DNA from: Pseudooceanicola batsensis HTCC2597
GTDB lineage: Bacteria > Pseudomonadota > Alphaproteobacteria > Rhodobacterales > Rhodobacteraceae
Direction of reading: 5' to 3'
Assembly: GCF_000152725.1 (NCBI RefSeq)
Contig: NZ_CH724131.1
Span: forward strand, 979,856 to 1,043,855
Length of the DNA stretch: 64,000 nt
The position numbers and the translations under genes are program-made. Within the stretch, counting starts at the first letter, position 1. Every line of letters starts with the position of its first letter. The notes under the pieces were generated by a model, which worked only from the letters and a program-made list of their open reading frames with translations, had not been told where the DNA came from and made no database searches. Positions 45,823 to 63,618 of this stretch are shown here, piece after piece.

Positions 45823-45843
45823 AACATAACGCCAATTTATGTT
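45823..45843. promoter_or_regulatory. Inverted repeat in the HTH-recombinase spacer
   Basis: AACATAA and TTATGTT, 7 nt apart, are flanked by CCCC and GGGG to make a longer dyad of 45817-45848. It lies in the 268-bp gap between the HTH gene and recombinase B. Confidence 0.45.
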
Positions 45844-45925
45844 CGGGGACGGATGTGCGACAGCCGGGGTCGCCCCGCTCGTGTCGGGATGATCCCTGTC
45901 CCATCTGTGCGACCGAGAGGCGAGG

Positions 45926-46294
45926 TCACGTCCACCATCCCACGGGAAGATCGACGCCCCGCAGCTTCAGCCAGTCGGTCACGTCATGAGGGTTGCAGCG
46001 CACGGCACCGAAGACGCGGCGCGTGGGCATCCCATCGTCAATCCACCGCTCGACGGTGCGCACGCTGACGCGGAGTGCCCCGGCAATCCGCTTCTTGCAA
46101 AGCAGGTCATCCTGGTAGCGAGTAATCCGAGAGCGTTTCGGCATCGGTCCGTCCTCGCAGGCCCACACATCCGGCCAGGCGAGACGGAAGACCCGGCCGA
46201 TGCGGATCGCCTCGATATCACCGGCCCGGATCTTGCGCCGAACCGTGTCGGGACGCAGACCGTAGTGTTTAGCAACTTCCTCAACCGACAGCAT
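45926..46294 (-). CDS. Small protein with two helix-turn-helix segments
   Basis: A 122-residue protein with an excisionase/MerR-like HTH at residues 3-45 (SVEEVAKHYGLRPDTVRRKI followed by IRIGRVFRLAW). A second HTH-like unit follows at about 70-105 (KKRIAGALRVSVRTVERWI). GGAGGAAAAA precedes the ATG at 46294. It is the first gene of the minus-strand run leading to the two recombinases and is divergent from the helicase gene. Regulator or recombination-directionality factor are both plausible. Confidence 0.72.
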   Translation of the reverse strand: MLSVEEVAKHYGLRPDTVRRKIRAGDIEAIRIGRVFRLAWPDVWACEDGPMPKRSRITRYQDDLLCKKRIAGALRVSVRTVERWIDDGMPTRRVFGAVRCNPHDVTDWLKLRGVDLPVGWWT

Positions 46295-46362
46295 TTTTTC
46301 CTCCTCACTTTGGACCTGAGAAGGAAATAGTCCCCAATGCGGCCGGCAAAAAACGCGTCGGT

Positions 46363-46421
46363 GCTGCAAAGGTGTGCTCTGCCAATTGATATCTTCAATT
46401 GAGCGACAACACCTTTGTAGC
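46363..46421. promoter_or_regulatory. 59-bp concentric dyad between HTH gene and helicase
   Basis: The outer arms are GCTGCAAAGGTGT (46363-46375) and ACACCTTTGTAGC (46409-46421), with 12 of 13 bases paired. The inner arms CAATTGA (46383-46389) and TCAATTG (46395-46401) share the same centre near 46392. It lies in the divergent promoter region and is a strong candidate operator or recombination site. Confidence 0.65.
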
Positions 46422-46507
46422 TGCGACAGGGGACAGGGCAGCACGACGCAGCAAATTTTTCCGCGACAGCACCTCGACCCAGTTCCTTCCAAACGAAGGA
46501 GCACCGA

Positions 46508-48676
46508 GTGGACCAGTCACCAAAGTTCGACCTAAGCAGATCAATCCCGTCCTGGAGGGATGTCGATGACGCGCGGCGGGATCTCGCCCGCCTGATAGAG
46601 GACTTCGTCGCGCAATCCGTGGAAGCGCACAACACCGAGGACCCGGAGCCAGTCTTGGCCGTGAAAGTCACGGCGGGAACCGGCAAGACGGGAGCGGCAC
46701 TCAATGCCCTCGCGCACCATGCGGAGCGACTACTCGCTCAAGGGCATGTTCTTGTTCACACACCGACACTCGAGCTTGCGTCCCGCGCTTGCGCGGACTT
46801 CCGCAAGATCGCCCCCGGTATTCCATCTGCCGTCGTGCGGGGTCGCCAAGCCGCTGATCCTTCTCGCATCGGCCACAGGATGTGCGATCGGCATGAACTG
46901 GCAGCGCGGCTGGAGGGACTTGTTCCGTCGCTTACGGAGGCGATGTGCTACGCTGAGCAGGAGGACGGGACCGCATACGAGGCGCCATGTGCAGCCCGAT
47001 GCCCGTATCTGGCCCAGAAATCGGAGGGGGGTGCGAAAGTCTACTTTCTCTCGCACGCCTATTTGAAAGCTCGTCCGCCAATTGACCAGAACCACCCCGT
47101 GGTCCTCCGCATAATCGACGAGAAGGTCTGGCCGACCTTGTCACAGACGATACCGATATCTATCGAGAATTTCATGCGAGCCCCGGCCTTAGGTTTCTCC
47201 CACGTTCTGAGACCTGGCTTGAACAAGGCGCGCTCGGCGATCCTACATGCTCTGCAAACCGGCGCACCCCTTGCCGAGACCCTCGCAGATGCGAAAATCG
47301 GGGATCAGGCGCTCAAGAATCTCAGCAAGGAAGAGGCAGCGTCACGGGTCGCCCTCGATATACGACCGTGGGACTCGGATGAGCAGGCTGCGCAGAAGCT
47401 CTCTGTATTTCAGCTGACCGACTTCAGGGCCTCACGGCTTCGTCAGCGGGTCTTCGAAGAGATTGGCGAGCGCCTTCCTGCATCGTCAATCCGCCTGAGC
47501 TATTGCGATGAACTCGAACGCGGTGAAGCTCGCCAGTTTATCAAGTTTCATGCCTTGGCTCTCGTGCCGCGAGATGCACCGGTTCTTTTGCTCGACGCGG
47601 ACATCGATGACGAGATCGTGGAGAGGATTGCTCCAGGGGCCCAGATCCGCCAAATCGAAGTGAAGCCGAAGGCGAATGTAATCCAGATTGCGGATCGCAA
47701 CCTGTCAAACAGTTGGCTCTTGAACCCGGAACATGGGCCGAAACGGCAAGCCGCTATTCTCGATGTTGTAGCCCGGGAGGTCGATCGAGCTCAGGGCGGT
47801 GGCGTCTTGCTTGTTGCGACCAAGGCGGTCTTGAAGGCGTTACATGCAAAGGCAGGACAGCCCGTGGGCGAAGATGTAGAAGAAGGCCTCCGCCAAGATC
47901 TCTGCGGTGCGTCAGCACGATGGTTTGGACCAAGCACCCAGGGCGTGAACGACTTCGAAGGCTACACGACAATCATTGTCGTTGGTCGTCTACAACCGCG
48001 ACCGTCGGCAATCGAGGATGCGACGCGTTGCATTTTCGGTGATGACGAGACACCTCTGGTCCCGAATGGCCCATTCATGCTGCCAGAACGACCGGCTTGG
48101 CACCTGATGGACAACGACGATCTAATCAAGACCAGTTGTCGGACCCACAGTGATCCTCGCGCTTGCCGCGTTCTCTCACAGATGCGTGAATGCCAAACCT
48201 TGCAGGCGATCGCACGCCTTCGACTCGTAAGTCCGAGCAAGCCGAAGCGTGTTGTGGTTCTGAGCAGCCTCCCTCTTCCGGGGTTCCCGGTTACCCAGCT
48301 CGTGCCTCTCGAAGCCGTGCTACGGGGGATTGAGCAAGAGGCCGATGTTTCCGGATACATTCGCCTGGAACGGGCGCTGCGCGCGACGCGGGGTAAGTCG
48401 GTTCGGGGAACACGCCTTTCAGCGGCCGGTCTCGCGGCAGACCTGCCGAAGGACTTCACTTCTGTAGATATTGCCCGAAATTTTCGGCGCGGTCGGACAT
48501 CTCACATGCTTCTGCGTATGGCAAAGCGGATTGCAGCAAGGAACGGATGGCCGATCTCTGTCCTTTCCCTCCGCCGAGCTGGAGGTGGCAAGCCCACACC
48601 AGCGATTGTCTTGTGCTCAAGCCAGGATGCGGTGCCTTGGGCAAAGAAGCTCTGGCCAGGCCTGACGGCAAAATAG
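46508..48676 (+). CDS. DinG/XPD-like putative Fe-S helicase
   Basis: A 722-residue protein from a GTG start with AAGGAG 7 nt upstream. Walker A VTAGTGKTG is at residues 54-62. Four cysteines at 126, 147, 161 and 165 lie between motif Ia and a motif II-like IIDEKVW (202-208), the arrangement of the Fe-S domain in DinG/XPD helicases. The segment VYFLSHAYL matches the conserved turn before motif II. Further on, LLLDADID and QAIARLRLV resemble later helicase motifs. It is probably cytosolic and acts on DNA or RNA. Overall similarity to any named helicase seems low; helicase activity is inferred from motif order. Confidence 0.65.
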   Translation: MDQSPKFDLSRSIPSWRDVDDARRDLARLIEDFVAQSVEAHNTEDPEPVLAVKVTAGTGKTGAALNALAHHAERLLAQGHVLVHTPTLELASRACADFRKIAPGIPSAVVRGRQAADPSRIGHRMCDRHELAARLEGLVPSLTEAMCYAEQEDGTAYEAPCAARCPYLAQKSEGGAKVYFLSHAYLKARPPIDQNHPVVLRIIDEKVWPTLSQTIPISIENFMRAPALGFSHVLRPGLNKARSAILHALQTGAPLAETLADAKIGDQALKNLSKEEAASRVALDIRPWDSDEQAAQKLSVFQLTDFRASRLRQRVFEEIGERLPASSIRLSYCDELERGEARQFIKFHALALVPRDAPVLLLDADIDDEIVERIAPGAQIRQIEVKPKANVIQIADRNLSNSWLLNPEHGPKRQAAILDVVAREVDRAQGGGVLLVATKAVLKALHAKAGQPVGEDVEEGLRQDLCGASARWFGPSTQGVNDFEGYTTIIVVGRLQPRPSAIEDATRCIFGDDETPLVPNGPFMLPERPAWHLMDNDDLIKTSCRTHSDPRACRVLSQMRECQTLQAIARLRLVSPSKPKRVVVLSSLPLPGFPVTQLVPLEAVLRGIEQEADVSGYIRLERALRATRGKSVRGTRLSAAGLAADLPKDFTSVDIARNFRRGRTSHMLLRMAKRIAARNGWPISVLSLRRAGGGKPTPAIVLCSSQDAVPWAKKLWPGLTAK

Positions 48677-51544: not shown

Positions 51545-52960
51545 ATGAGAGATTGCTGCACCCCCGAGGGCGGCGCCTATGACCTTGCCGTGATCGGCGC
51601 AGGCTCGGCGGGATTTTCGGCCGCGATTACTGCCGCCGAAGCCGGGGCGCGGGTCGCCCTGATCGGCGACGGAACCATCGGCGGCACATGCGTCAACGTG
51701 GGCTGCGTGCCTTCCAAGGCGCTGATCCGCGCGGTGGAAGGTCTGCACCATGCCCGGGCCGCGAACCGGTTCGACGGTATCCAGGCCGAGGCCCGCGTGA
51801 CCGATTGGGCCGCGACAGTGGCGCAGAAGCAGGTGCTCGTGGAGGAGCTGCGCGCGGTGAAATACGTCGACGTGCTGCCCCGGCACGAGAACATCGACTA
51901 CATAGAGGGCCGCGCCAGCTTCGACGGCGAGGGCCGCCTGACAGTGAACGGCGCGGTCTTTCCGGCGACCAAGGTCGTCATCGCGACCGGCTCCCGACCG
52001 CATATGCCGGCAATTCCGGGCATCGAGGAGGTCGACGCCCTCGACAGCACCTCGGCACTGGAGCTGACCGAATTGCCAGCCTCGATGCTGGTGCTCGGCG
52101 CGGGCCATATCGGGGTGGAACTGGCGCAGCTCTTCGCCCGTGCGGGTGTCGAAGTGACGCTGATCAGCCGCCGGGGCGTGCTGCCGGAAGCAGAGCCAGA
52201 GATATCACAGGCGCTGGAGGGCTATCTGTCCGAGGAAGGCATCCGCCTGGTGCGGGTCGCGGGCTACGAGAGCGTGACCTGCGACGGCGATACCGTGCGT
52301 CTGACCACCACGGACGGCGCCATCTTCGACGCCGAGCGGCTGCTGCTCGCCACCGGACGGGTGCCGAACAGCGACGGGCTGAACCTCGGCTCTGCTGGGA
52401 TCGAGACCGACGTGCGGGGCGGGATCGTCACCGACGCGCAGATGCGCACCGCCAACCCGAACGTCTGGGCCGCAGGCGACGTCACCGGGCGCGACCAGTT
52501 CGTCTACATGGCGGCCTACGGTGCCAAGCTCGCGGCCCGCAACGCGGTGGCGGACGAGGTGCGCAGCTATGACAACGGCACGATGCCCTGGGTTGTCTTC
52601 TCCGACCCGCAGGTGGCGGGCGTGGGGCTGAGCGAAGCACAGGTGCGGGCTGCCGGGCATGAGGTCGTGACCTCGGTCCTGCCGCTCGATGCCTTGCCGC
52701 GCGCGCTCGCCGCCCGCGACACGCGCGGGCTGATCAAGCTGGTGGCGGAGGCGGGAAGCAAGCGTCTCTTGGGCGCGCAGATCCTCGCCCCCGAAGGGGC
52801 TGACAGTATCCAGACAGCGGCGATGGCGCTGAAGGCGGGGCTGACCTACGAGGAGCTGGGCGACACCATTATGCCCTATCTCACCACGGTCGAGGGGCTG
52901 AAACTCGCCGCTCAGACTTTCGAGAAGGACGTGGCCGCGCTCAGCTGCTGTGCAGGGTGA
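51545..52960 (+). CDS. merA: Mercuric reductase MerA
   Basis: A 471-residue cytosolic flavoprotein that reduces Hg(II) to volatile Hg(0) with NADPH. The FAD motif VIGAGSAGFSAA, the redox-active GTCVNVGCVPSKAL, the NADPH motif VLGAGHIGVELA and the C-terminal Cys pair in LSCCAG are all present. It lacks the N-terminal MerP-like domain found in many MerA proteins. It is 12 bp downstream of merF in the same operon. Confidence 0.96.
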   Translation: MRDCCTPEGGAYDLAVIGAGSAGFSAAITAAEAGARVALIGDGTIGGTCVNVGCVPSKALIRAVEGLHHARAANRFDGIQAEARVTDWAATVAQKQVLVEELRAVKYVDVLPRHENIDYIEGRASFDGEGRLTVNGAVFPATKVVIATGSRPHMPAIPGIEEVDALDSTSALELTELPASMLVLGAGHIGVELAQLFARAGVEVTLISRRGVLPEAEPEISQALEGYLSEEGIRLVRVAGYESVTCDGDTVRLTTTDGAIFDAERLLLATGRVPNSDGLNLGSAGIETDVRGGIVTDAQMRTANPNVWAAGDVTGRDQFVYMAAYGAKLAARNAVADEVRSYDNGTMPWVVFSDPQVAGVGLSEAQVRAAGHEVVTSVLPLDALPRALAARDTRGLIKLVAEAGSKRLLGAQILAPEGADSIQTAAMALKAGLTYEELGDTIMPYLTTVEGLKLAAQTFEKDVAALSCCAG

Positions 52961-52963
52961 CCT

Positions 52964-53326
52964 ATGAGTGACAAGTCTTCGCGCGATCTCCTTGGCTCCG
53001 CCAGCGGCTCTGTCATCGCTTGGTGGCTGCCCATCGGGGCCATGCTCCTGGCGATCCCGCTCTCCGATGGCCCCAAGACGGTGATCTGGCTTGTGGCGCT
53101 GGTCTGGATGGGCGGCGCCTGCTTCCTCAACGCCCGGCGCTGCGGTCGTGTCCATTGCCGCTACACCGGGCCGTATCTGCTGGCGATGACGCTTCCGGTG
53201 CTGGGCCATGGCACTGGGCTGGTGCCGCTGGGCGACGGGGGATGGCACTGGCTCGGCCTCGCGGTCGGCGGAGGCACCGCGGCGATCTGGGGGCTGAGCG
53301 AACGCATCATGGGCAGATACCGCTGA
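52964..53326 (+). CDS. Small membrane protein of the mer operon
   Basis: A 120-residue protein with three or four hydrophobic segments and a conserved-looking loop NARRCGRVHCRYTGPYLL holding two cysteines. It starts 3 bp after the merA stop. The cysteine loop suggests mercury or thiol binding, but I do not recognise a named family (it is not MerE, MerC or MerH by length and motif). Confidence 0.7.
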   Translation: MSDKSSRDLLGSASGSVIAWWLPIGAMLLAIPLSDGPKTVIWLVALVWMGGACFLNARRCGRVHCRYTGPYLLAMTLPVLGHGTGLVPLGDGGWHWLGLAVGGGTAAIWGLSERIMGRYR

Positions 53327-53373
53327 GCGCAAGGAACCTACCCATCCGACCGGCAAAACAACGAGGAGCAGAC

Positions 53374-54720
53374 ATGACAGGGACACTCGACCTGATCGTC
53401 ATCGGCGCCGGCATGGCCGGGATCAACGCCGCGAAGAAATGCAGCAAGGCCGGCTGGTCGGTCGCCATTGTCGATGAACTTCCTTACGGCGGCACATGCG
53501 CGCTCAGGGGCTGCGACCCAAAGAAGATGCTGCGTGCCGGTGCCGAGGCGATCGAGGCCGCTCGGAGACTTGAGGACAAGGGCATCACGGGGGCGCCCCA
53601 GATCGACTGGCCCGCGCTGATGAGACACAAGGAAAGCTTCACCGATCCGGTGCCCGAGAACATGGAAAGCGGGCTGCGGGAGGCCGGGGTGCGAACGCTG
53701 CACGGTCGTGCTCGCTTCACGGCCGAAGATCGGATCGGGGTCGAAGGTCATGGCGAGATCGGCTTTCGCCACGCGCTGATCGCTACAGGAGCAAAGCCGC
53801 GGCCGCTGAACTTCCCCGGCGCCAAAAAGTTGATCGACAGCACCGACTTCCTCAACCTCGCTGAGCTGCCCCACCGTATCGTCCTTGTCGGCGGCGGCTA
53901 CATCTCATTCGAGTTCGCCCATATCGCGGCGCGGGCGGGGGCGGAGGTGACGATCCTCGACCGGGGTGCGCGGCAGCTGAAGATGTTCGATCCCGATCTT
54001 GTCGACATGTTGATCGAGCGCAGCCGCGCGGCCGGGATCGAGATCATCTCTGAGGCCGTGATCGAGCGGGTCGAAGAGGCAGAGGGAGCCCACTGCGTGG
54101 TTTACCGGAAGGGGGACGAAAACCATGCCATCGAGGCGGACCTCCTCGTCCACGGCGCCGGTCGGGTGCCTGCCCTCGACCATCTCGACCTCGCTGCTGC
54201 CGGGATCGAAACCGAGCATGGCGGCGTGGAGGTCACACCCTGGCTCCAATCATCGTCGAACCCGCGCATCTTCGCGGCAGGCGACGCCGCCGCATCCGGG
54301 GGCAAGCCGCTGACCCCGGTGGCGGTGTTCGAAGGCAAGATCGCGGCCTCGAACATGCTCACGGACAAGCGGACCGAGCCCGACTACACCGGCGTGCCGA
54401 GCGTGGTGTTCACCATTCCCGAGCTTGCGCGGGTTGGCCTCCTCGAGGAGGAGGCGCGAGCAAGGGGCGAAGTCGATGTCAGCTTCACCGACACCTCGGA
54501 CTGGTTCTCGCAGAAGCGGCTGGGCGAAAGTCACGCGAGCGCGAAGGTCATTACCGGCACGGACGGCAAGATCCTTGGCGCGCACATGTTCGGCCCGGAC
54601 TACGCCGAGTTGATCAACGTCTTTTCTCTCGCGATCAAGCTGGGGCTGACGGCGGCGCAGGTGAAATCGATGCCCGCGGCCTATCCGACTGGGGCGTCGG
54701 ACATCGGGTCAATGTTCTGA
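53374..54720 (+). CDS. Pyridine nucleotide-disulfide oxidoreductase (glutathione-reductase-like)
   Basis: A 448-residue FAD/NAD(P) disulfide oxidoreductase. VIGAGMAGINAA binds FAD; the redox motif GGTCALRGCDPKK keeps the CxxxxC spacing of the family; VLVGGGYISFEFA binds the nicotinamide nucleotide; IFAAGDAAASGG binds the FAD ribityl chain. The C-terminus ends ...YPTGASDIGSMF; the usual glutathione-reductase HPT is YPT here, so the catalytic His is absent. It may reduce a small disulfide that supplies thiols for the Hg pathway (inference). GAGGAG is upstream. Confidence 0.88.
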   Translation: MTGTLDLIVIGAGMAGINAAKKCSKAGWSVAIVDELPYGGTCALRGCDPKKMLRAGAEAIEAARRLEDKGITGAPQIDWPALMRHKESFTDPVPENMESGLREAGVRTLHGRARFTAEDRIGVEGHGEIGFRHALIATGAKPRPLNFPGAKKLIDSTDFLNLAELPHRIVLVGGGYISFEFAHIAARAGAEVTILDRGARQLKMFDPDLVDMLIERSRAAGIEIISEAVIERVEEAEGAHCVVYRKGDENHAIEADLLVHGAGRVPALDHLDLAAAGIETEHGGVEVTPWLQSSSNPRIFAAGDAAASGGKPLTPVAVFEGKIAASNMLTDKRTEPDYTGVPSVVFTIPELARVGLLEEEARARGEVDVSFTDTSDWFSQKRLGESHASAKVITGTDGKILGAHMFGPDYAELINVFSLAIKLGLTAAQVKSMPAAYPTGASDIGSMF

Positions 54721-54781
54721 CCGGCGGCCATCTGCCCGGATTGCCTGCACGTCGACCAAGAAACCGAATAAGACGAGGGAC

Positions 54782-55450
54782 ATGGAGTTTTCTGATCAAT
54801 CGATCCTGCTTGCCCTTGGCCTCGGCCTCCTCGGCTTTATTGAGCCCTGCACCTTCGGGGCGCATATGCTGTTCCTCTCGGCCCAAGAGGGACGTAGGCT
54901 GCGACAGCGTTTAAGCGCGGCAGTGGTTTTCCTACTGGCGCGGCTTGTCGTCATGGGCGGGTTCGGCGGCCTGATCGTCCTCCTCGGCCAGCGCCTGATC
55001 GGTGTTCAGACCGGGATGTGGCTGGTCTTCGGAGCGATCTACCTCGGCTTCGGGATCGCGATCATCGCGGGAGGTGACAGTGGGCTTCGCCGGCGGGTCC
55101 GGTTCGCGCCGGACCGCTGGAAGATCGCCGACGCGCCGCTCCTGCAAGGTGCAGCCTTCGGGTTGAACATCCCCGCCTGCGCTGCGCCCATCCTGTTTGG
55201 GCTGATCGGCACCGCGACCGTCAGCGGCTCGGCCGCGAGCGGCGTGCTGATGATGTCCGTCTTCGCCCTGGCGCTCTCGCTGCCGCTCATTCCCCTATCC
55301 ATCGCGCCCGGACTTGCAGGCGGGCTCGACCGGGTCGCGAACTGGCTGAGGCCGCGCCGTTGGCTCCTGGGCGCGGTTTTCATCGACCTGGGCCTGTGGT
55401 CGATCTGGTTCGGGCTCTTCGTTGATCCGGCGGACTGGAGCGGCAGGTGA
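54782..55450 (+). CDS. CcdA/DsbD-family membrane electron-transfer protein
   Basis: A 222-residue, six-helix membrane protein. The paired cysteines typical of CcdA are in FIEPCTFGAHM (helix 1) and LNIPACAAPILFG (helix 4). Such proteins carry reducing equivalents from cytosolic thioredoxin to the periplasm. Its place in the mer operon, after a disulfide reductase, suggests keeping MerP or MerT cysteines reduced (inference). It overlaps the next gene by 4 bp. Confidence 0.82.
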   Translation: MEFSDQSILLALGLGLLGFIEPCTFGAHMLFLSAQEGRRLRQRLSAAVVFLLARLVVMGGFGGLIVLLGQRLIGVQTGMWLVFGAIYLGFGIAIIAGGDSGLRRRVRFAPDRWKIADAPLLQGAAFGLNIPACAAPILFGLIGTATVSGSAASGVLMMSVFALALSLPLIPLSIAPGLAGGLDRVANWLRPRRWLLGAVFIDLGLWSIWFGLFVDPADWSGR

Positions 55451-56700
55451 CCCCCTGCCGCCGGTTCTGGCATGTCGCGGGCGCCGGCGCAGCATTTCAG
55501 GCCGGCTCGGCGGCGGTGGACAGCGCCACTGTAATGTCGGCGTCGGTCTTCCAGCTGACAGGCAGCCCGGTGGCCGTAGGCGCAGTCTCCACGAGACTGC
55601 GGCTCGGCTGGCTCCTGCCGCAGCTCTTCGTGGGCTACCTTGCCGGGCGCAGTGGCTCCTCGATGCCGTTCTACGTCCTCGGCGCCTTCGGGCGAACGAC
55701 AGCCATCGCCGCGCTCGCTGGCGTCCTGTGGATCGGAGCGAGCGCAGGATGGAGTTCGGCAACTCTTGGCGCGGTCACGCTCGGTTTGTGGGCCGTCTAC
55801 GCCTGTCTCAGCGGCATCGTCGGCGTGCCCTACAACGACATCGTGGCACGGTCCGTGCCATCCCGCCAGCGGAGTAGGCTCCTCGCGGTCCGCTTCTTCG
55901 GGGGAGGCCTTGTGGCCCTGCTTGTCGCCGCCGTCGCGGACAGGCTCCTCCGGGCGCTCGACTTCCCTGCTTCCTACGCGGCGGTTCTGGGTATCGCCGC
56001 CGTGTTGATGCTGGTGTCGTCCGTTGTCTTCACCTCGATGGGGGAACCTGTGAGAGCCACTCCGCCGAAGGCGGCCGCCAGCTTCGGAGCCTATCTGAAA
56101 GAAGGTGCCGAGACATTCCGCAGCGACGCCGTGTTCCATCGCTTCGTCTTCGCGCAGTGGTGCGGCGGCGCCGTGCTCGCCGCAGCGCCCTTCTTCGTGG
56201 TCGCAGCGGACTCGCTGGGCATGAGCCTGCAAAACGTGGCGCTTCTGCTGGGAGCCCAGACGGCGGGCGCCTTGCTCAGCAACCCGCTATGGGGCTGGTG
56301 GGGCGACCGGTTGGGCAAGCTCAGCCTGATGCGCGTGATCGCGGCCAGCCGCATCGCGCCGCCGGTCGCGCTTCTCGCGCTGCTGATGGTTCCAATTTCA
56401 CATGCTGCGCTCATGCCGGCGCTGCTGGCTGTCTTCCTACTGCTTGGCGCCCTGGCGAATGGCTTGACCATCGCGGTCATCGAACTGCTCATGGAGATAT
56501 CGCCGGAGGAGCGCCGACCCGCATACAGCGGCTATTTCAACGCGCTTACGGCGCCGGCCTTCGTGTTGCCATTCGTCGGCGGATTTGCTGTCGCTGCGCT
56601 GGATACCTGGATCGTCTTCCTCATCGCGCTTGCAGCCGCACTCGGCCAGTCACTTCTGCTCGACCGCATCGAAGCTGGACAGGGCCGGGAAGGGCATTGA
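55447..56700 (+). CDS. Major facilitator superfamily transporter
   Basis: A 417-residue, 12-helix MFS protein from a GTG start that overlaps the previous stop. The N-terminal half lacks a clear motif A; the segment GWWGDRLGKLSLMRVIAAS in the middle is a motif A copy in the C-terminal half. It is the last gene of the mer operon, convergent with ccdA on the other strand. The substrate is unknown. Confidence 0.85.
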   Translation: MTPCRRFWHVAGAGAAFQAGSAAVDSATVMSASVFQLTGSPVAVGAVSTRLRLGWLLPQLFVGYLAGRSGSSMPFYVLGAFGRTTAIAALAGVLWIGASAGWSSATLGAVTLGLWAVYACLSGIVGVPYNDIVARSVPSRQRSRLLAVRFFGGGLVALLVAAVADRLLRALDFPASYAAVLGIAAVLMLVSSVVFTSMGEPVRATPPKAAASFGAYLKEGAETFRSDAVFHRFVFAQWCGGAVLAAAPFFVVAADSLGMSLQNVALLLGAQTAGALLSNPLWGWWGDRLGKLSLMRVIAASRIAPPVALLALLMVPISHAALMPALLAVFLLLGALANGLTIAVIELLMEISPEERRPAYSGYFNALTAPAFVLPFVGGFAVAALDTWIVFLIALAAALGQSLLLDRIEAGQGREGH

Positions 56701-56826: not shown

Positions 56827-57552
56827 CTATCCGATCGCTCCCAAGGCCGGAAACGTCTCGAGCAACCAGTAGGAAAAGACGGTCAGCTGGCCGGTCATCA
56901 TCGCGAGCCCCATCAGTATCATCACCGCCCCGGCGACCCTGTGCAGGCCGCGCCCCAAGCCACGGACCCTGCGCAGCCTCGTGCCGGCCTGCTGGATAAA
57001 GGCAGCGACCAAGACGAAGGGCACGCCGAGCCCGACGGAGTAGACCGCGAGGAGCGCCACTCCTTCGCCCATGGTCGTCTGCATGGCGCTCGCCATGAGG
57101 ATCGCGCCGAGGATCGGCCCGATGCATGGGGTCCAGCCGAAGCCGAAGGCGAGGCCGAGGACATAAGACGCCATGGGCTGCCCGCCGGGAATATCGAGAT
57201 CGAAGCGCAGGTCGCGCTCCAGCGCACGAATACGGGCCGCGCCCAGCATGAACAGACCGAACAGCGCGACGATCGCCCCGCCGAGGATGTTCAGCTCAAA
57301 GCGCCATCGCAGCAGGGCCTGCCCGAGCGCGGTGGCGGAGGCGCCAAGCGCGATGAAGATCGTCGAGAACCCGAGCACGAAGCACAGGCTCAGCCAGATC
57401 ATGGCGGCCCGACTCGGCGCCTTGCCCGGTCCCGTGCGCCCGGCGATGTAGGAGACATAGCCGGGCACCAGCGGCAGGACGCAAGGCGACAGGAAGGACA
57501 CCGTGCCGGCCAGAAGCGCGGCGAGAAGGCCGAGGGTCTGGATGTCAGGCAT
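56827..57552 (-). CDS. ccdA: Cytochrome c biogenesis/thiol transport protein CcdA
   Basis: A 241-residue, six-helix membrane protein. FLSPCVLPLVPGY (helix 1) and FGWTPCIGPILG (helix 4) contain the catalytic cysteine pair of CcdA. It moves electrons from thioredoxin to periplasmic thiol proteins such as the TlpA/DsbE-type protein and SCO proteins of the same operon. It is the last of eleven tightly spaced minus-strand genes, 3 bp after the preceding one. Confidence 0.93.
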   Translation of the reverse strand: MPDIQTLGLLAALLAGTVSFLSPCVLPLVPGYVSYIAGRTGPGKAPSRAAMIWLSLCFVLGFSTIFIALGASATALGQALLRWRFELNILGGAIVALFGLFMLGAARIRALERDLRFDLDIPGGQPMASYVLGLAFGFGWTPCIGPILGAILMASAMQTTMGEGVALLAVYSVGLGVPFVLVAAFIQQAGTRLRRVRGLGRGLHRVAGAVMILMGLAMMTGQLTVFSYWLLETFPALGAIG

Positions 57553-57555
57553 GGC

Positions 57556-58032
57556 TCACTTCCGCCACGCGCGCGGGGAGGTGGCGCCGAGATAGGCTGC
57601 CGTGGGCACGACGAGCCATTGCAGGAACGGCGTCAGGCCAGCATCGATGACCGGGATCACCGGCATGATGTCGCGATAGGCCCAGGCCTCCCGCACGACG
57701 ATGTTCAGCCACTCGCTGAAAACGGTGTATCCAACTCCCATTACCACGGCGGCCAGGAGCACCGGGATTGACCGCTGCTTTGGCCACTCCGCGCGTCCGA
57801 ACAGGAACAGCGCCAGAAGCAGGGTGCTGAAGGCGATCATCAGATCGCCGCCCGTGCAATGCACGATGGCGAAAACGATCTCGCCCGCGCTGCCCTCGGT
57901 CCAGATCGTGTAGAGCGGGATGTGGGCGACTTCCCAGAGCAGATGGCCGATGAGGGAGAACAGAAAATAGCGCCGTAGAACCCCCAGCCAGTCCGGGGTC
58001 GCCGCGACGCTTGCTGAATTTGTCACCGTCAT
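57556..58032 (-). CDS. Four- or five-helix membrane protein of the copper/thiol operon
   Basis: A 158-residue inner-membrane protein (RRYFLFSLIGHLLWEVAHIPLY as the opening helix region). It contains His and Trp residues at helix ends and one cysteine (IVHCTGGDLM). The start overlaps the upstream SCO-like gene stop by 4 bp (ATGA). No named family recognised; the conserved-looking GHLLWE and EWLNI segments deserve a profile search. Confidence 0.65.
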   Translation of the reverse strand: MTVTNSASVAATPDWLGVLRRYFLFSLIGHLLWEVAHIPLYTIWTEGSAGEIVFAIVHCTGGDLMIAFSTLLLALFLFGRAEWPKQRSIPVLLAAVVMGVGYTVFSEWLNIVVREAWAYRDIMPVIPVIDAGLTPFLQWLVVPTAAYLGATSPRAWRK

Positions 58033-58637
58033 TCGAACCACCCCAGCGCCCTGTCGAGAATGCCTTCGGGTTCCGGATGCGGATGCGCGTTGGTCAGCCC
58101 GTTGATATGCATGAGGAGATTGAGCGGCTCGAAATCGGTCCCGTGAAAGATGCCGACATGGCGGCCCTGCCGGTCAAAAAGGTGGATCATCGTCGCCTCG
58201 TCCGAGCGCTCTGAGACAGCAGCGAGCCGCGCCTCGAGATCCTCAAGGCCGCCCTGCGACCGCACCATCGACCAGTTCTCGGCGTCGAGCGTATCAATGT
58301 CCGCCGCATCCTCGACCACGGTCACGAAGCCGACCATCTCGCGCATGGGGCCCGCATTGAGCGAGGTGACGGTCTTCGCCAACCGCTGGTGCTGCGCGTC
58401 GCAGGCCTCGGTGCAGGATGCCTGACGGAAATTGACCACGAGAATGCGCCCGGCGAAGTCTTCCAGGCTTAGTGTTTCCCCGTCCTCGGTGACGAGGTCG
58501 GGTCCGGGCCGGAAGATCGCCTCGAAGCCCGGTTCCTTTTCGGCCGTGACTTCGTTCAACCGCTTCCCGGGGTGATCGGCCGAGGCTGCTGAGCCAACCA
58601 TGGCGGCTGTCATGGAGATGAGAATTGCCTGTCGCAT
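58029..58637 (-). CDS. SCO/thioredoxin-fold protein with Cx3C motif
   Basis: A 202-residue exported protein (signal peptide about residues 1-20). RILVVNFRQASCTEACDAQH carries a SCO-type Cx3C pair near residues 74-78. The His expected late in SCO proteins may be the one in FDRQGRHVGIFHG. It is more divergent than the SCO gene next to it. Its ATG shares one base with the stop of that gene. Confidence 0.78.
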   Translation of the reverse strand: MRQAILISMTAAMVGSAASADHPGKRLNEVTAEKEPGFEAIFRPGPDLVTEDGETLSLEDFAGRILVVNFRQASCTEACDAQHQRLAKTVTSLNAGPMREMVGFVTVVEDAADIDTLDAENWSMVRSQGGLEDLEARLAAVSERSDEATMIHLFDRQGRHVGIFHGTDFEPLNLLMHINGLTNAHPHPEPEGILDRALGWFE

Positions 58638-59284
58638 CAACTGCGCCTCTCCTTGTCCAGTCGCATTTCGATTTCCTCGGCGAGATCCTCGGGCGGCTGA
58701 TCCCCCTCGAGGAAGACGGCCTCGAACCGGCCATCAGGGCGCATCAGGTAGATGTGCCCGGCATGGGCCATGGTGTATCCGTCCTGCGCCTCCGCATCCG
58801 CCATATGCTCGTGATATACCTTGAAGCTCTGCGCGGCCTCCGCGGCCTGGGCCGGGCTTCCCGTCAGCCCCACCAGCCGGGGATGAAAGTTCGCGACGTA
58901 GTCCGCCATGACCTCGGGCGTGTCCCGTTCGGGGTCGACGGTGATGAAGAGCGGCGCGACATGGTCCGCGTCTTCGCCCAGCAGGTCGAGGGTAGTGGCC
59001 ATGTAGGCCAGGGTTGTCGGGCAGACATCCGGGCAGTTGGTGAAACCGAAAAACACGAGCTGCCAGCGGCCGGCGTAATCCGTCTGGGTGACCGGGCGTC
59101 CCGTATGGTCGACAAGTTCGAAGTCGGAGCGAATATCCGCCTCGCCGCTATAGACGACCTGTGCGGGCGCGGCCTGATCTCGCAGGAGCAGCAGTCCGGC
59201 GGTGGCAACGGTGAGGACAGCGGCTCCGCTCCAAAGGAGGAAGCGCAGCCGCTTGTGAAAGGTGTCGGGAGAGGAAGTGGGCAT
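58637..59284 (-). CDS. SCO1/SenC-family copper chaperone
   Basis: A 215-residue membrane-anchored periplasmic protein. After one N-terminal helix (LLWSGAAVLTVATAGLLLL) comes the SCO thioredoxin fold with FFGFTNCPDVCPTTLAY (Cx3C copper site) and the third ligand His in AHAGHIYLM. SCO proteins deliver copper to the CuA site of cytochrome oxidase or act as thiol reductases. The start at 59284 gives a normal N-terminus. Confidence 0.92.
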   Translation of the reverse strand: MPTSSPDTFHKRLRFLLWSGAAVLTVATAGLLLLRDQAAPAQVVYSGEADIRSDFELVDHTGRPVTQTDYAGRWQLVFFGFTNCPDVCPTTLAYMATTLDLLGEDADHVAPLFITVDPERDTPEVMADYVANFHPRLVGLTGSPAQAAEAAQSFKVYHEHMADAEAQDGYTMAHAGHIYLMRPDGRFEAVFLEGDQPPEDLAEEIEMRLDKERRS

Positions 59285-59337
59285 CTGTCTGTCTTTCTGT
59301 TTGGCCGGCCCGGGCCGGAGCCCGGGCGGGCCTTCGA

Positions 59338-59625
59338 TCAGCCCTGATCGGCTTGATCGGCCTGGTCGTGATGCTCCTGCATGTGGGTGTTCATCGTCTC
59401 CATCATCTCCATGCAGGCCTGCATGTGCTTCATCATCATCGGCATCATGCCTTCCATGCCTTCCATTCCGGCCATGCCCTGCATCCCCGTCATGTCGCCA
59501 CCCATGTGGCCGCCTTCCTTCGTCTCCTCTGCGTCCGCCGGGGCGGTATCCTGCGCGTAGGCCACGGGCGCGAAGGCGAGCAGGGACAGGGCCACGGCGC
59601 TGCCGAACTTGGTAATGGTCTTCAT
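59338..59625 (-). CDS. Exported Met/His-rich putative copper-binding protein
   Basis: A 95-residue protein with a clear signal peptide (cleavage after AYA, residue 24). The mature part is extraordinarily rich in Met (GMQGMAGMEGMEGMMPMMM) with several His (HMQACMEMMETMNTHM) and one Cys. Met- and His-rich clusters of this kind bind Cu(I) in the periplasm. AAAGGA precedes the ATG. I know no named family for it. Confidence 0.78.
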   Translation of the reverse strand: MKTITKFGSAVALSLLAFAPVAYAQDTAPADAEETKEGGHMGGDMTGMQGMAGMEGMEGMMPMMMKHMQACMEMMETMNTHMQEHHDQADQADQG

Positions 59626-59648
59626 GTCGTATCCTTTCGAGGTAGGGT

Positions 59649-59924
59649 TCAGTCTGTCGGGGTGTCCGGCTTGCCTGCCGGAGCGGTCTTGTTGGCGCAG
59701 GCGGACGAGCCCCCGCGCATGCAGAGCCCCAGCGCGCACATCGCGGCGCAGGGGGCAAAGCTCAGGATCAGGGGGGCCGCGCCAATGGCAGTGAGCCAGC
59801 CCCAGTTCAGGGCCATGCCGGTGCCGATGACGGCCAGCGCCACCAGAATCCATCCACGCCTGCCCAGGCCGGGAAGCCGGCTTGCGGGGATCGTCCCGAT
59901 CGCGTTCGTCGATCGCTCGCTCAT
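59649..59924 (-). CDS. Small two-helix membrane protein with cysteine cluster
   Basis: A 91-residue protein with two hydrophobic segments; the second, LSFAPCAAMCALGLCMRGG, holds three cysteines, and a fourth follows in the tail. The start overlaps the stop of the TlpA-type gene by 4 bp. It may hold copper or exchange disulfides; unnamed family. Confidence 0.68.
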   Translation of the reverse strand: MSERSTNAIGTIPASRLPGLGRRGWILVALAVIGTGMALNWGWLTAIGAAPLILSFAPCAAMCALGLCMRGGSSACANKTAPAGKPDTPTD

Positions 59925-60499
59925 GTCCTGTTCTCCGTTTGAAGCCGGCGCACGACCGGCAGGATTTCTTCTTCCAGCGAGCGGCGGTCGAACGGACCGA
60001 CATGCTTGTAGGCAACGCCGCCGCGTGCATCGATGACGAAGGTTTCTGGAAGCCCGTAGCCCCCCCAGTCGAGCGAGGCGCGCCCGGAGCGGTCGGCTCC
60101 GATGCGGGTGTAGGGATCGCCCGTCTCGTCGAGAAAACGGAGCGCCGCATCCGGCGCATCCTTGTAGTTGATGCCGTGGATCGGGACCGTGTCCCGCGCG
60201 GCCAGCTCGACCAGGAGCGGCATCTCGACCCGGCAAGGCACGCACCATGAGGCCCAGACATTGACGATCGACACCTCGCCTTGCAGGTCCGCAGTCGACA
60301 GGCCGTCGGCGCGGCCCTCGATGGGAGGCAGGTCGAACTCGGGAACCGCTTTGCCGGTCAGGGCCGAGGGCAGCCGGTCGTCGGAGTTCATGAGGCCCCA
60401 GTAGAACGCCGCCGCGAGTGTTGCGAACAGCGCTGCCGGAAGGAGCACTAATACCCGACCACGGGGCCGCTTGCGCGGTTCCTGTTCCGCCGCGCTCAT
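59921..60499 (-). CDS. TlpA/DsbE-type periplasmic thioredoxin
   Basis: A 192-residue membrane-anchored thioredoxin-fold protein. One N-terminal helix (about 15-37) is followed by NVWASWCVPCRVEMP with the redox CxxC near residue 88, and the cis-Pro loop GLPETFVIDARG. The layout is that of DsbE/CcmG, which reduces apocytochrome c. Here the target may instead be SCO or copper-site cysteines. It overlaps genes at both ends by 4 bp. Confidence 0.92.
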   Translation of the reverse strand: MSAAEQEPRKRPRGRVLVLLPAALFATLAAAFYWGLMNSDDRLPSALTGKAVPEFDLPPIEGRADGLSTADLQGEVSIVNVWASWCVPCRVEMPLLVELAARDTVPIHGINYKDAPDAALRFLDETGDPYTRIGADRSGRASLDWGGYGLPETFVIDARGGVAYKHVGPFDRRSLEEEILPVVRRLQTENRT

Positions 60500-61005
60500 G
60501 GCTTGCCCTCGGCACCGGCCGAGACCTCGGCCTGGAAGGCGCGTTCGCGCTTGGACCAGCTGGTCTTGATATAGGCCAGCACTGCCTTGATCTCGTCGTC
60601 GCTCAGCAGCCCCTCGAAGGCGGGCATATCGCTCTCGTAGCCCGGCACCACCGCGCCGACGCCATGCTTGGTGATCGTGAACAGGTCCCGATCGGCATGG
60701 TGCCAGGTGTGGCCGCTGTCGTCGTGCGGCGGCGCGGGCATGCGCCCGTCCTCGGTCCGGCGGCGCCAGTCCGGCTGACCCTCGAGTTTCGCGCCATGAC
60801 AGGCGGCACAGCTCTCGGCATAGATCTCGCCACCTTGCTCGACCATGTCACGGGTGACCGGCTCTCCGAGAACGGAGAGCCCTGCGATCTCCTGCGATTG
60901 CTCGGGCGCTTTTGCTTCCTCCTCCAGCAGGCCCTGCGCCACCGCCGCGATCGCGGCGGCGCCGGCCAAACCGGAAACGAGCCCCAGCGTCAGGCCGCGT
61001 CTCAT
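60496..61005 (-). CDS. Membrane-anchored c-type cytochrome
   Basis: A 169-residue class I cytochrome c with an N-terminal signal/anchor helix. The haem site CAACHG is near residue 68, and the axial Met is likely in ESDMPAFEGLLSD. It is monohaem and probably periplasm-facing. It could link copper(I) or sulfur oxidation in the operon to the respiratory chain (inference). Overlaps of 4 bp on both sides tie it to the operon. Confidence 0.9.
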   Translation of the reverse strand: MRRGLTLGLVSGLAGAAAIAAVAQGLLEEEAKAPEQSQEIAGLSVLGEPVTRDMVEQGGEIYAESCAACHGAKLEGQPDWRRRTEDGRMPAPPHDDSGHTWHHADRDLFTITKHGVGAVVPGYESDMPAFEGLLSDDEIKAVLAYIKTSWSKRERAFQAEVSAGAEGKP

Positions 61006-61154
61006 CGCGGGCTCCTGAGGAACTTGACCAGCGCGATCAGGCTCAGGACCAGCACGGTCAGCACCAGCAGCAGGACCAGCCCGCCTCCGAGCATCATGGT
61101 GCCCATCATCGGGCTACCCATCATCGACATCATGCCCTCCATGCACTCATTCAT
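61002..61154 (-). CDS. Met-rich membrane miniprotein
   Basis: A 50-residue protein: Met-rich head MNECMEGMMSMMGSPMMG, then one hydrophobic helix (LVLLLVLTVLVLSLIALV) and a basic tail KFLRSPR. I chose the ATG at 61154, which overlaps the DUF411 stop by 8 bp. It resembles the 34-residue miniprotein at 63761 in layout. A copper-binding membrane peptide is plausible. Confidence 0.65.
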   Translation of the reverse strand: MNECMEGMMSMMGSPMMGTMMLGGGLVLLLVLTVLVLSLIALVKFLRSPR

Positions 61155-61638
61155 CGGAGAACACCGTGATGTCATCGCCCGAGAAGGCGTAGGTCTTGAG
61201 CGTGCCGCTCTTGCCGGCCATGCCCGGGGCATTCATCGGCATGCCGGGCAAGGTGATGCCGGTGATCTCGGGACGCTCCGTGGTCAGGCGCTCCACGATC
61301 TCGGCCGGGACCAGCCCGCTGACATAGTAGCCGTCCACCTGCGCGAGGTGGCAGCCAAGGCCCTGCTCGGGCACGCCCGCCTCGATCGAGCGCTTGTCGA
61401 AGTCCGGGTCGTCAATCCGCGTCACGTGATAGCCGTTCTCCTCCATGTAGTCGGCATAGGCGTCGCAGCAGCCGCAGTTCCGATCGCGCCAGATCGTCAT
61501 CTGCTTTTCGGCCGGGACGGTGGCTTCGGCCGGCGCGTTGGCGGTGTTGTCGGTTTCGGCGGTGGTGAAGGTCGCGGCGCCAATGGCGGCGGCAGTAGCG
61601 AGGGCCGCTGCGGCGACGGTGAGAAGCTTGCGGTTCAT
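61147..61638 (-). CDS. DUF411 periplasmic metal-binding protein
   Basis: A 163-residue exported protein (signal peptide about 1-22). The DUF411 core has WRDRNCGCCDAYADYM with three cysteines near residues 55-58 and a further Cys in EQGLGCHLAQV; YYVSGLVPAEIVERL and the final ITLPGMPMNAPGM are typical. DUF411 proteins are found in copper-resistance and metal loci. The start is 1 bp after the stop of the beta-propeller gene, so they are co-transcribed. Confidence 0.9.
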   Translation of the reverse strand: MNRKLLTVAAAALATAAAIGAATFTTAETDNTANAPAEATVPAEKQMTIWRDRNCGCCDAYADYMEENGYHVTRIDDPDFDKRSIEAGVPEQGLGCHLAQVDGYYVSGLVPAEIVERLTTERPEITGITLPGMPMNAPGMAGKSGTLKTYAFSGDDITVFSDE

Positions 61639-61639
61639 G

Positions 61640-62584
61640 TCAGCTGTCCTTGGATTGATCGAAGGAACTCCAGGTGGTGCCGCCGTCGCGTGAGACGCGT
61701 AGCCCGGAGGGTCCGGCTGCGATCACGTGGAGTGGATCGGCGGGATCGACGGCGAGCGCGGTGACGGGGGCGAAGGTGACTTGTGCCCAGTTCACCCCGG
61801 CATCCGTCGACAGCCACAGCCCGGAGGGCAGCGCGGCGAGGATGCGCTCGGGCGCGTCGGGCGCAAGGGCGAGGATCTCGACCGGCTCGCCAGCGGGCAG
61901 CGCGGCGGCCTCGGTCGGCGCATTGCCCGCGACCAATGCATCCATCGCGTCTCCCGCGACGACATCCTGCCAGCGGCAGAAGCAGTCCGGCACCCGCGTC
62001 AGCCCGGCCTGCGTGCCCGCATAGAGCCAGATGCCACCCATCCCGGTCTCGTTGGCGACCGAGACGAGGCTGACCACGTCATGCTCCGCGCCGTCGAGAT
62101 AGGGACGGTCCATGACGAACGCCCATGTCTTGCCGTCATCCTCGCTGCGCCACAGCCCGTCGCCCTCGAGAGAGGCATAAAGGGTGTCGGGCGCATGCGC
62201 GGCCATAGTGAGGGACAGGATCGGCGCACCGGGCAGTCCGGCATCCGCCACGGTCCAGCTCACGCCGCCGTCACTGCTGCGGCGCAGGCTGCCGTCCTTC
62301 CATCCGGCGAAGATAACACCAGGACGGGACGGGTGGGTCGAGAGAGTGTTGGGCGGCTCCACGTCGCCGAGCTTCGTCCAGCTTTCGCCGTCGTGCCGCA
62401 GCAACCCGTCGGGCTTGGCGGCAAGAATGGCGGAGCCGTCGAAGGCCAGGGCAAAGGCCGGGTCGAATGCCAGCGACGGGCCTGATCGGGCAAAGCCGGG
62501 GGCAAGGATCGTTGCGCCCAGCACGGCCAAGCCGGAGGACAGGACGCGACGACGCGAAAGCGCGCGTGCGGTAAGGGCAGTCAT
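61640..62584 (-). CDS. Tat-exported beta-propeller (BNR/YCF48-like) protein
   Basis: A 314-residue protein with a twin-arginine-type signal (SRRRVLSSGL, then a hydrophobic stretch). The mature part is built of sialidase/BNR-type repeats: RSSDGGVSWT, RSEDDGKTWA, LSTDAGVNWA and VSRDGGTTWS are spaced about 50-60 residues apart. Such propellers bind proteins or assemble metal centres (YCF48 in photosystem II). It is the first gene of the eleven-gene copper/thiol operon. Cys pair in PDCFCRW. Confidence 0.85.
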   Translation of the reverse strand: MTALTARALSRRRVLSSGLAVLGATILAPGFARSGPSLAFDPAFALAFDGSAILAAKPDGLLRHDGESWTKLGDVEPPNTLSTHPSRPGVIFAGWKDGSLRRSSDGGVSWTVADAGLPGAPILSLTMAAHAPDTLYASLEGDGLWRSEDDGKTWAFVMDRPYLDGAEHDVVSLVSVANETGMGGIWLYAGTQAGLTRVPDCFCRWQDVVAGDAMDALVAGNAPTEAAALPAGEPVEILALAPDAPERILAALPSGLWLSTDAGVNWAQVTFAPVTALAVDPADPLHVIAAGPSGLRVSRDGGTTWSSFDQSKDS

Positions 62585-62682
62585 GGAAGATATCCTGAGA
62601 AGGGATCGGTCGGTTCACGGCCTGCCTGTCCTGATCGGACAGGCACGGCGTTACCAGGCCGTCACCTATGCGGTGCGGCCGG

Positions 62683-63024
62683 TCAACTCAGGATAGTGGT
62701 TCGAGGGGGCGCGGGATCGAAACCCGGTCGACGTGTTCGCAGCGCCGTATCGTCCGGACGCGTTATGCCCCGCGTGGCAACGGTTTGCGGCAGGATTTCG
62801 GGCGACCCCTCGGTCGACAGCAGGGGCGCGGTGCAATCGAGATCGCAGACCAGTTGCTCGCTCGCATCCTGATCGCAGGCAGGGCAGAGATCGTCCTGCG
62901 CCTCGGCGACTGCCGATGCCGCCATGTCGAACGACATCCGGGCACCGGCCGCGTCATGCATCATCACGCCGCCCAGAAGGGCGATCGAGAGGCAGAACGA
63001 GACAAGGCGGACCCATAGGCGCAT
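62683..63024 (-). CDS. Exported cysteine-containing hypothetical protein
   Basis: A 113-residue protein with a signal peptide (about residues 1-27) and two CxxC-type pairs, DLCPACDQDAS and LVCDLDC, followed by a Pro/Thr/Arg-rich tail. It lies 98 bp upstream of the beta-propeller gene on the same strand and may belong to the same operon. Unrecognised; zinc or copper binding is possible. Confidence 0.6.
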   Translation of the reverse strand: MRLWVRLVSFCLSIALLGGVMMHDAAGARMSFDMAASAVAEAQDDLCPACDQDASEQLVCDLDCTAPLLSTEGSPEILPQTVATRGITRPDDTALRTRRPGFDPAPPRTTILS

Positions 63025-63183
63025 GGCACAGATCTATGAACGGACGGGACGCCTGTCCACTGGGCACAGTCAGAAATCAGTCACGAGGCCGTCAACCGGC
63101 GGTCCGTTGCCGATACGGAGGTAGCGACGGAACGTCATCCCGGCCGCCGTGGTTTGTCCTGGCACTCAGCAGAGGAGCAAGAC

Positions 63184-63618
63184 ATGCAAGTCCAAGACAT
63201 CATGACGAGCAACCCCACCTGCTGTGGGGGGAACACCACCATCCAGGAAGCGGCGAAGCTGATGGCCGAGCAGTCCATCGGTGCCTTACCCGTGCTCAAC
63301 GAGGCGGGTGAACCAATCGGGGTCGTCACCGATCGCGACATCTGCTGCGGGGCCGTGGCCGAAGGCAAATCCGGTGCGACCGCCGTTTCGGACGTCATGT
63401 CCACGGACGTGCTGACCACGACGGCAGACGAGGAGGTCTCGTCCTGCTGCAACAAGATGGAGGAGCGTCAGGTGCGTCGTGCCGTCGTCACCGACGAGGA
63501 AGGCAAGTGCTGCGGCATGGTCGCGCAAGCCGACGTTGCGCGTGAGGCGCAAGGGGCAGAAACGGCAGATCTCGTGCAGAAGATTTCGCAGCCGGAAGGC
63601 CGTTCCGGCTGCTGCTGA
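63184..63618 (+). CDS. CBS-domain pair protein with five vicinal Cys pairs
   Basis: A 144-residue protein made of two CBS domains (QVQDIMTSNP... and VSDVMSTDVL...), the fold that binds adenine nucleotides. Unusually it has ten cysteines, all as CC pairs: NPTCCGG, RDICCGA, VSSCCNK, GKCCGM and the terminal SGCC. GAGGAG upstream supports the ATG at 63184. In ordinary CBS proteins these positions are not cysteine. The pairs suggest binding of Hg(II), Cu(I) or As(III), in keeping with the mer and copper genes on the left (inference). No known homologue recalled. Confidence 0.85.
   Translation: MQVQDIMTSNPTCCGGNTTIQEAAKLMAEQSIGALPVLNEAGEPIGVVTDRDICCGAVAEGKSGATAVSDVMSTDVLTTTADEEVSSCCNKMEERQVRRAVVTDEEGKCCGMVAQADVAREAQGAETADLVQKISQPEGRSGCC

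Follow-up and report, generated by a model that had tools for sequence, protein, structure and literature searches.

The stretch of DNA analysed here, referred to as the window, comprises 64,000 nucleotides (nt) of Pseudooceanicola batsensis HTCC2597 (contig NZ_CH724131.1, positions 979,856 to 1,043,855 of the forward strand). Near its end, on the minus strand, it carries eleven closely spaced genes preceded by a short open reading frame (ORF), and together these probably constitute a copper-resistance operon of twelve genes, the first of which would encode a copper-sensing leader peptide resembling CutF. The computed features, namely which genes are present and in what order, the leader ORF with its invariant motifs, the leader RNA structure, and the covariation between the leader tail and the next ribosome-binding site, are described below before the reading is weighed against its rivals.

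Organization and conservation of the operon

A preliminary description of this DNA had placed eleven minus-strand ORFs at 56827–62584, and all of them are found there, but it overlooked a first, twelfth gene on the same strand (62683–63024), which is the leader ORF. From the propeller gene to CcdA, the intergenic gaps are 1, −8, −4, −4, −4, 23, 53, −4, −4, and 3 nt, a pattern as expected of an operon, and solely from these overlaps and the conserved gene order we infer that the eleven genes are co-transcribed.

The first of the eleven encodes a beta-propeller protein of the BNR/sortilin type with a twin-arginine N-terminus (61640–62584; PF15902, 36.4 bits). Its score of 89.9 bits against NF045728 (F510_1955 family glycosylhydrolase) falls below the curated cut-off of 175, and it is not counted as a member of that family. 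It is followed by a DUF411/CopG copper protein (61147–61638; PF04214, 63.3 bits; PDB code 6WIS, E = 1.3e-17), identified as CopG by the profile match together with Cys and Met copper motifs, a Met-rich, single-helix miniprotein of 50 amino acids (61002–61154), a cytochrome c with an N-terminal anchor recognized by inspection (60496–61005; PF13442 and PF00034), and a thioredoxin-like protein of the DsbE/CcmG type (59921–60499; TIGR00385, 163.9 bits, above the cut-off of 123.15). Next are a small Cys-rich membrane protein with the sequence PCAAMCALGLCM (59649–59924), a Met/His-rich secreted protein of 95 amino acids (59338–59625), and two SCO proteins. SCO1 (58637–59284; PF02630, 182.1 bits) aligns to structures of Bradyrhizobium Blr1131, including CxxxC and the His, and is assigned to SCO1/SenC; Blr1131 is the ScoI of that organism. 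The divergent SCO2, with the motif CTEAC (58029–58640), matches the same family less well (27.4 bits, cut-off 22.8). The last two genes encode MemX, a four-helix membrane protein (57556–58032), and a CcdA/DsbD-type membrane electron carrier (56827–57552; PF02683, 59.7 bits). For seven of these proteins, profile matches agree with the family labels given previously, and the Met-rich miniprotein, the Met/His-rich protein, the Cys-rich protein, and MemX match no family by profile search. The AlphaFold model of MemX (mean predicted local distance difference test score, pLDDT, 84) has four long helices, and 22 columns are invariant among 22 sequences. No match to the model was found in the PDB at E ≤ 0.001 (best E 1.4), and the MemX sequence has no relative among known structures (best E 0.26, a pilin).

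For the comparison with other genomes, GTDB genomes were scanned with SCO1 and the best 80 of 89 loci kept, with the presence of each gene scored by tblastn on the same strand. At least nine of the eleven genes are present in 63 of these SCO1-selected loci, and in 55 of the 63 they are strictly collinear; in the other eight, matches are out of order, several of them representing extra Met-miniprotein or CcdA copies elsewhere in the locus. The same gene order, for which the preliminary description had proposed a search, is present in many genomes; a gene order confined to this genome, which that description had named as a refutation of its proposal, is not what the comparison shows. Apart from SCO1 itself (80/80 by selection), the most frequent partners are cytochrome c, DsbE, the Cys-rich protein, and the second SCO (71/80 each), followed by DUF411 (69/80), the propeller (65/80), the Met-rich miniprotein (64/80), CcdA (63/80), the Met/His-rich protein (58/80), and MemX (48/80), where the counts refer to loci and not to independent events, since a number of records nearly duplicate others and a number of contigs break off inside the operon. 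Three shorter operons (loci L126, L127, and L129), in which matches end after cytochrome c or the Cys-rich protein, suggest that the propeller, CopG, and cytochrome c may form a minimal core.

Annotated examples of the operon reside on plasmids of Limimaricola variabilis, Salipiger abyssi, and Acuticoccus. MemX alone has matches in 112 plasmid records, 64 of them from Pseudosulfitobacter, and in the one record of that set that was inspected, a MemX–CcdA pair lies near CueR and a P-type ATPase, with the rest of the operon missing. The distribution of the operon is patchy: of the genomes sampled, the propeller is matched in 10 of 196 at the level of the order and in 6 of 289 at that of the class, counts that include the present genome, and the class-level matches are mostly weak.

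A CutF-like leader ORF precedes the propeller gene

The leader ORF (62683–63024, minus strand) encodes 113 amino acids with a hydrophobic N-terminus, the motifs CPAC and CDLDC, and the C-terminal sequence DPAPPRTTILS. It has no Pfam match, and is located on the same strand as the propeller gene, 98 nt upstream. As described in PMC8456105 and PMC9973294, Rhodobacter capsulatus CutF is a protein of 118 amino acids with a putative Sec signal, a CxxxC motif, and the proline-rich end PEPEGPPPRL; a stem-loop hides the cutO ribosome-binding site, and copper on the nascent chain has been proposed to delay translation, which would open the stem-loop. CutF-like ORFs precede many copper genes (PMC9973294). 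Judged by the operational features used for CutF-like proteins in that source, the window leader is shorter than 150 amino acids, has a Pro-Pro within the last 15 residues, and has a same-strand downstream gene well within 1,000 nt. The CxxxC of the CutF-like seed list (PMC9973294) is represented by CDLDC, with both cysteines invariant in 25 of 25 aligned leaders, as is the PPR; the N-terminus, for which the same source specifies a Sec signal, was judged hydrophobic by eye. An RNA structure that shields the next ribosome-binding site, which is part of the CutF mechanism, is predicted as described below. In cutFOG a multicopper oxidase directly follows the leader, and in the window that place is taken by the propeller.

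The leader is present upstream of the operon in all 69 propeller-bearing loci (65 GTDB loci, the window, and three plasmids), either before the propeller or before an oxidase that precedes the propeller. A motif scan detected 64 of the 69, and the other five, located 131–138 nt before the oxidase, were found by tblastn; as a rough control for the scan, a similar proline motif ends 217 of 12,435 frames of at least 60 codons. The distance from the leader to the first detected operon gene is 93–154 nt in 59 of the 69 loci. When regions were selected by the propeller instead of SCO1, DUF411 and cytochrome c were present in all 12 and the leader in 11, the exception being L127, which has a truncated oxidase at its head. 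In this smaller set, two regions (L123 and L130) are probably the same records as L036 and L032, and four weaker class matches were left out. On the minus strand of the Limimaricola variabilis plasmid (L082), there is also a second, different CutF-like ORF that ends in EPPRRLI, upstream of an oxidase (5871–7286), where it heads a cluster of oxidase, DUF411, a small protein, and cytochrome c.

Across the 25 aligned leaders, the invariant columns are M1, H23, M30, C47, C50, C60, C64, P106, P107, and R108. The hydrophobic N-terminus, the four invariant cysteines, and the invariant Met and His would also suit an ordinary secreted copper-binding protein without any regulatory role. We regard this alternative as improbable, because identity to the window leader drops to 22% among the aligned members, yet the PPR near the stop codon stays invariant, and because changes in the last codons are matched by changes in the ribosome-binding site that follows, as outlined in the next section.

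Predicted structure of the leader RNA and pairing with the ribosome-binding site

The window leader folds with a z-score of −4.91, and none of 200 shuffles is as good; for seven other leaders, z ranges from −2.55 to −0.08. Two hairpins are predicted between the leader and the propeller gene, P2 immediately 3′ of the leader stop codon (62657–62680, minus strand) and P3 (62620–62649, minus strand). In an alignment of 14 sequences, 100% of the cells of P2 are paired, and the hairpin is mostly invariant, while P3 has 95.4% of its cells paired and four pairs changed on both sides. With both hairpins kept, the 14 short-gap leaders show 10 cells changed on both sides versus 2.6 after shuffling, and the observed value is reached in 0 of 500 shuffles. 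For the first hairpin of 17 long-gap leaders, the corresponding numbers are 20 versus 8.7 cells (0 of 500), and the number of pairs with a change on both sides is reached by 20 of 500 shuffles; these shuffle tests leave the relatedness of the sequences in place. Sliding the alignments of the two sets lowers the proportion of paired cells from 96–98% to about 20–52%. Taken as a prediction, the leader RNA is folded, with covariation.

The two hairpins are enclosed by a third helix, P1, which closes a junction around them. Its 5′ strand consists of the last leader codons, TATCCTGAG (62687–62695, minus strand), which we propose to act as an anti-ribosome-binding-site, and its 3′ strand is the ribosome-binding site of the propeller gene, CTCAGGATA (62591–62599, minus strand); the two match over nine bases. 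Among the 14 short-gap relatives, 88.1% of the P1 cells are paired, and one inner pair is changed from A-U to U-A in four of them. This scoring is confined to the short-gap alignment, and the long-gap alignment (A5), in which the ribosome sites are shifted between subgroups, was left out. Other lineages combine different tail and site letters, as in TTCCTGAG/TTCGGGAA, TCATCCTGAT/ATCAGGATGA, TTCATCTGA/TCAGATGAG, and TTCTCTGA/TCAGAGAG, and among 26 long-gap leaders there are 14 in which the helix includes the stop codon up to its last base.

The correspondence between tail and site across lineages was evaluated by permutation of 43 distinct tail/site pairs out of 48, after five with gaps of 180–366 nt had been dropped. 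Matched helices are longer than permuted ones with 19 clusters (7.11 versus 5.42 base pairs) as well as with 14 clusters (6.43 versus 5.05 base pairs), in each case at a level reached by 0 of 20,000 permutations, and with nine clusters p is 0.002 for helix length. Within the short-gap and long-gap classes, p ranges from 0.0001 to 0.0184 for helix length and from 0.0000 to 0.0172 for energy, averaged over cluster representatives. Folding predictions point in the same direction. The propeller ribosome-binding site has a predicted unpaired value of 0.005 in the window leader and of less than 0.1 in 32 of 46 distinct leaders. When the last 20 nt of the leader ORF are blocked, the site is predicted to become more open, by over 0.02, in 39 of the 46; a control block of equal size further upstream has this effect in five.

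Several observations weigh against a lock of this kind, or against the assignment of the leader in general. The outermost P1 pair of the window is formed in just 3 of the 14 short-gap relatives, and the window site is predicted to open only from 0.005 to 0.234 when the tail is blocked. Of the 43 tail/site helices, 15 have fewer than six Watson-Crick pairs, and in 18 of the 43 loci the pairing of the tail is equalled by more than 5% of the other windows in its ORF. Tail and site do not pair in four Thalassospira-type leaders with gaps of 333–366 nt, the tails of L120, L125, and L129 pair weakly with the site, and the tail block has no effect in several leaders, such as the L020 group. The leader lies 180–957 nt from the first detected gene in 10 of the 69 loci, and neither the window leader nor any other protein of its own genome matches DUF2946 (PF11162). 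Synonymous recoding gives p ≤ 0.05 in just 10 of 48 leaders, and because these single-locus tests are weak, we rely on the permutation across lineages.

Comparison with known copper-responsive leaders

As for cutFOG of R. capsulatus, the window operon has a leader ORF with CxxxC and a proline-rich end, a predicted structure hiding the next ribosome-binding site, a first product exported by the twin-arginine (Tat) route, and a CopG-type gene downstream, and many relatives of the window operon also contain the multicopper oxidase. The differences are that the window operon itself has no oxidase, contains nine further genes, and has a gap of 98 nt instead of 40, and that the proposed anti-site consists of the leader's own last codons (for cutFOG, PMC8456105 and PMC9973294). 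Arrest by CruR and CutF had not been demonstrated directly according to PMC10987492, and PMC9973294 reports no strong stall with the CutF end alone.

CruR of Bordetella pertussis is a DUF2946 leader with a sign of control opposite to that of CutF, exerted through Rho-dependent termination (PMC9426467). It resembles the window ORF in being a copper-responsive leader ORF, a response that is proposed for the window ORF, and in its paired cysteines and C-terminal Pro-Pro motif (PMC9426467). If the window leader acted in the same manner, copper would relieve a stall and the operon would be shut off, which is highly improbable: it would make little sense for copper to switch off a resistance operon, and the tail/ribosome-site lock fits translational opening. 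Membership of the leader in the DUF2946/CruR family was rejected on the profile criterion, only two of the 25 leader relatives giving weak matches (best E 0.026). Because the length, Pro-Pro, and neighbour features are present and the DUF2946 profile is unmatched, the leader is called CutF-like and not a DUF2946 member.

A literature search with most subscription journals outside its scope turned up no paper recognized as describing this gene set, or a pairing of the leader tail in CutF-like ORFs, and the excerpt of PMC6308992 describes neither. With CutF-like ORFs reported before many copper genes (PMC9973294), the leader belongs to a kind already known; what seems to be new is its position at the head of this long operon, together with a lock formed by its last codons that covaries with the site.

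Copper neighbourhood and probable function of the products

The preliminary description had noted that no copper ATPase or oxidase is present. This holds inside the window, but both are encoded about 3–11 kb beyond its end (position 1,043,855 of the 3.4-Mb contig), and the absence is therefore a window-edge effect. In order along the contig, there are a multicopper oxidase domain at 1,047,292, a P-type metal ATPase at 1,049,880, another multicopper oxidase domain at 1,054,006, and a second DUF411 at 1,056,256, with CopC and CopD beside them, and further members of the oxidase, ATPase, and DUF411 families occur on another contig of the same genome. Copper-type genes besides the eleven are found in 68 of the 80 loci, counted anywhere in the locus on either strand. 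PCu(A)C is present in 60, a multicopper oxidase of the in-operon type in 33, a P-type ATPase in 32 (possibly for other metals in some cases), and CueR in 29; a second TlpA, which was left out of the copper-type tally, is present in 57.

The operon was earlier suggested to encode a periplasmic redox system for copper or sulfur. The copper and thiol part of this proposal is supported by CopG, the ScoI-like SCO1, DsbE with CcdA, and the copper-type genes in most loci, while sulfur oxidation has no family match. Oxidation of sulfur or mercury by the operon was likewise rejected as a candidate function, with no such family among the matches of its products. The thiol-redox genes of the operon and a neighbouring gene that is presumably related to mercuric reductase would accord with a sulfur- or mercury-oxidizing system, but the lack of any sulfur-oxidation family and the copper-type genes beside 68 of the 80 loci leave it with hardly any probability.

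A more serious alternative, although one we consider unlikely, is that the operon provides, during copper stress, a reserve of assembly factors for cytochrome c and cytochrome oxidase (DsbE/CcmG, CcdA, and the SCOs; in relatives also PCu(A)C and TlpA). Respiration would thereby withstand copper damage, and detoxification would fall to the neighbouring ATPase and oxidases. Such a role would be in line with the CcmG type of DsbE, the ScoI-like SCO1, and the frequency of PCu(A)C and a second TlpA among the loci. In Bradyrhizobium, TlpA, ScoI, and PCu(A)C build the CuA site (PMC7558416), and R. capsulatus under copper loses c-type cytochromes when CutO or CutF is missing (PMC8456105). The window operon shares with the TlpA–ScoI–PCu(A)C assembly (PMC7558416) a thiol reductant and an SCO protein, as well as PCu(A)C in most relatives, but has no PCu(A)C of its own and is found in a genomic context of copper resistance. 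Moreover, no oxidase or cytochrome-maturation (Ccm) gene is named in the operon by profile search, and CopG, the Met-rich proteins, and the multicopper oxidase of the relatives point to detoxification. As regards CopG, the window DUF411 protein aligns with PDB 6WIS over the CGCC, C-H, and Met motifs, but its gene is part of a long operon instead of lying beside copA or cusCBA.

Among other features of the surroundings, a CBS-domain protein with many paired cysteines (63154–63618, plus strand) is divergent from the leader ORF and matched in 11 of the 80 loci. Just past the window end, a PIN-domain protein and an IS3-like integrase-core transposase (L105:1763–3808) separate the CBS gene from the first multicopper oxidase. 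Convergent with the operon, at 51545–56700 on the plus strand, are genes for two pyridine-nucleotide disulfide oxidoreductases, a DsbD-type membrane protein, and a major facilitator superfamily transporter, and in locus L002 (Limimaricola hongkongensis DSM 17492) the operon is likewise followed by relatives of these four. The first oxidoreductase, with SCCAG at its C-terminus, is the one that we take to resemble mercuric reductase, and its gene lies outside the operon. Elsewhere in the window, 6001–8000 is a local composition outlier (guanine-plus-cytosine content 0.782, AT skew −0.367), and at 42393–48676 there are three large ORFs, of which one matches helicase/NTPase (nucleoside triphosphatase) families weakly and the other two match nothing in Pfam. 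Scans of the 64-kb window for tRNA genes and Rfam families gave no matches.

Proposed mechanism and implications

For the copper-resistance operon, we infer copper binding, stalling, the sign of control, and every biochemical step, including their order, from the features described and, as for the biochemical steps, from the protein families. Without copper, the ribosome would complete the leader ORF and depart, and the freed last codons would pair with the propeller ribosome-binding site in P1, closed around P2 and P3, so that the operon is off. When copper is available, it would bind the cysteines of the emerging, exported leader, and translation would pause near the terminal PPR. The paused ribosome would then cover the last codons, P1 would open, and the downstream genes would be translated. 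In the periplasm, the small Met- and Cys-rich proteins and the SCO proteins may bind Cu(I), which CopG would oxidize or exchange, aided in many relatives by the in-operon multicopper oxidase. Cytochrome c would pass the electrons to the respiratory chain, and CcdA and DsbE would hold the thiols reduced.

More specifically, and as a tentative proposal that we consider quite possible, the leader would be a peptide–RNA double sensor, in which the terminal codons of a copper-binding nascent peptide, in many relatives together with the stop codon, serve as the anti-ribosome-binding-site. A single ORF of 113 codons would in this way combine sensor, arrest peptide, and RNA switch, and control a periplasmic copper-redox pathway that includes MemX beside CcdA, on chromosomes and plasmids of marine Alphaproteobacteria.

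Only a small number of copper-sensing nascent peptides have been investigated so far. With regard to how the signal of such a peptide reaches the next gene, covariation among dozens of natural variants of this leader points to the codons that would lock a given ribosome-binding site, and the proposed switch is therefore testable base by base. A marine operon whose genes are annotated as ‘sialidase’, ‘SCO family’, and ‘hypothetical’ can now probably be assigned to copper resistance, which also draws attention to MemX and to the Cys-rich and Met-rich peptides as partners without a family assignment.

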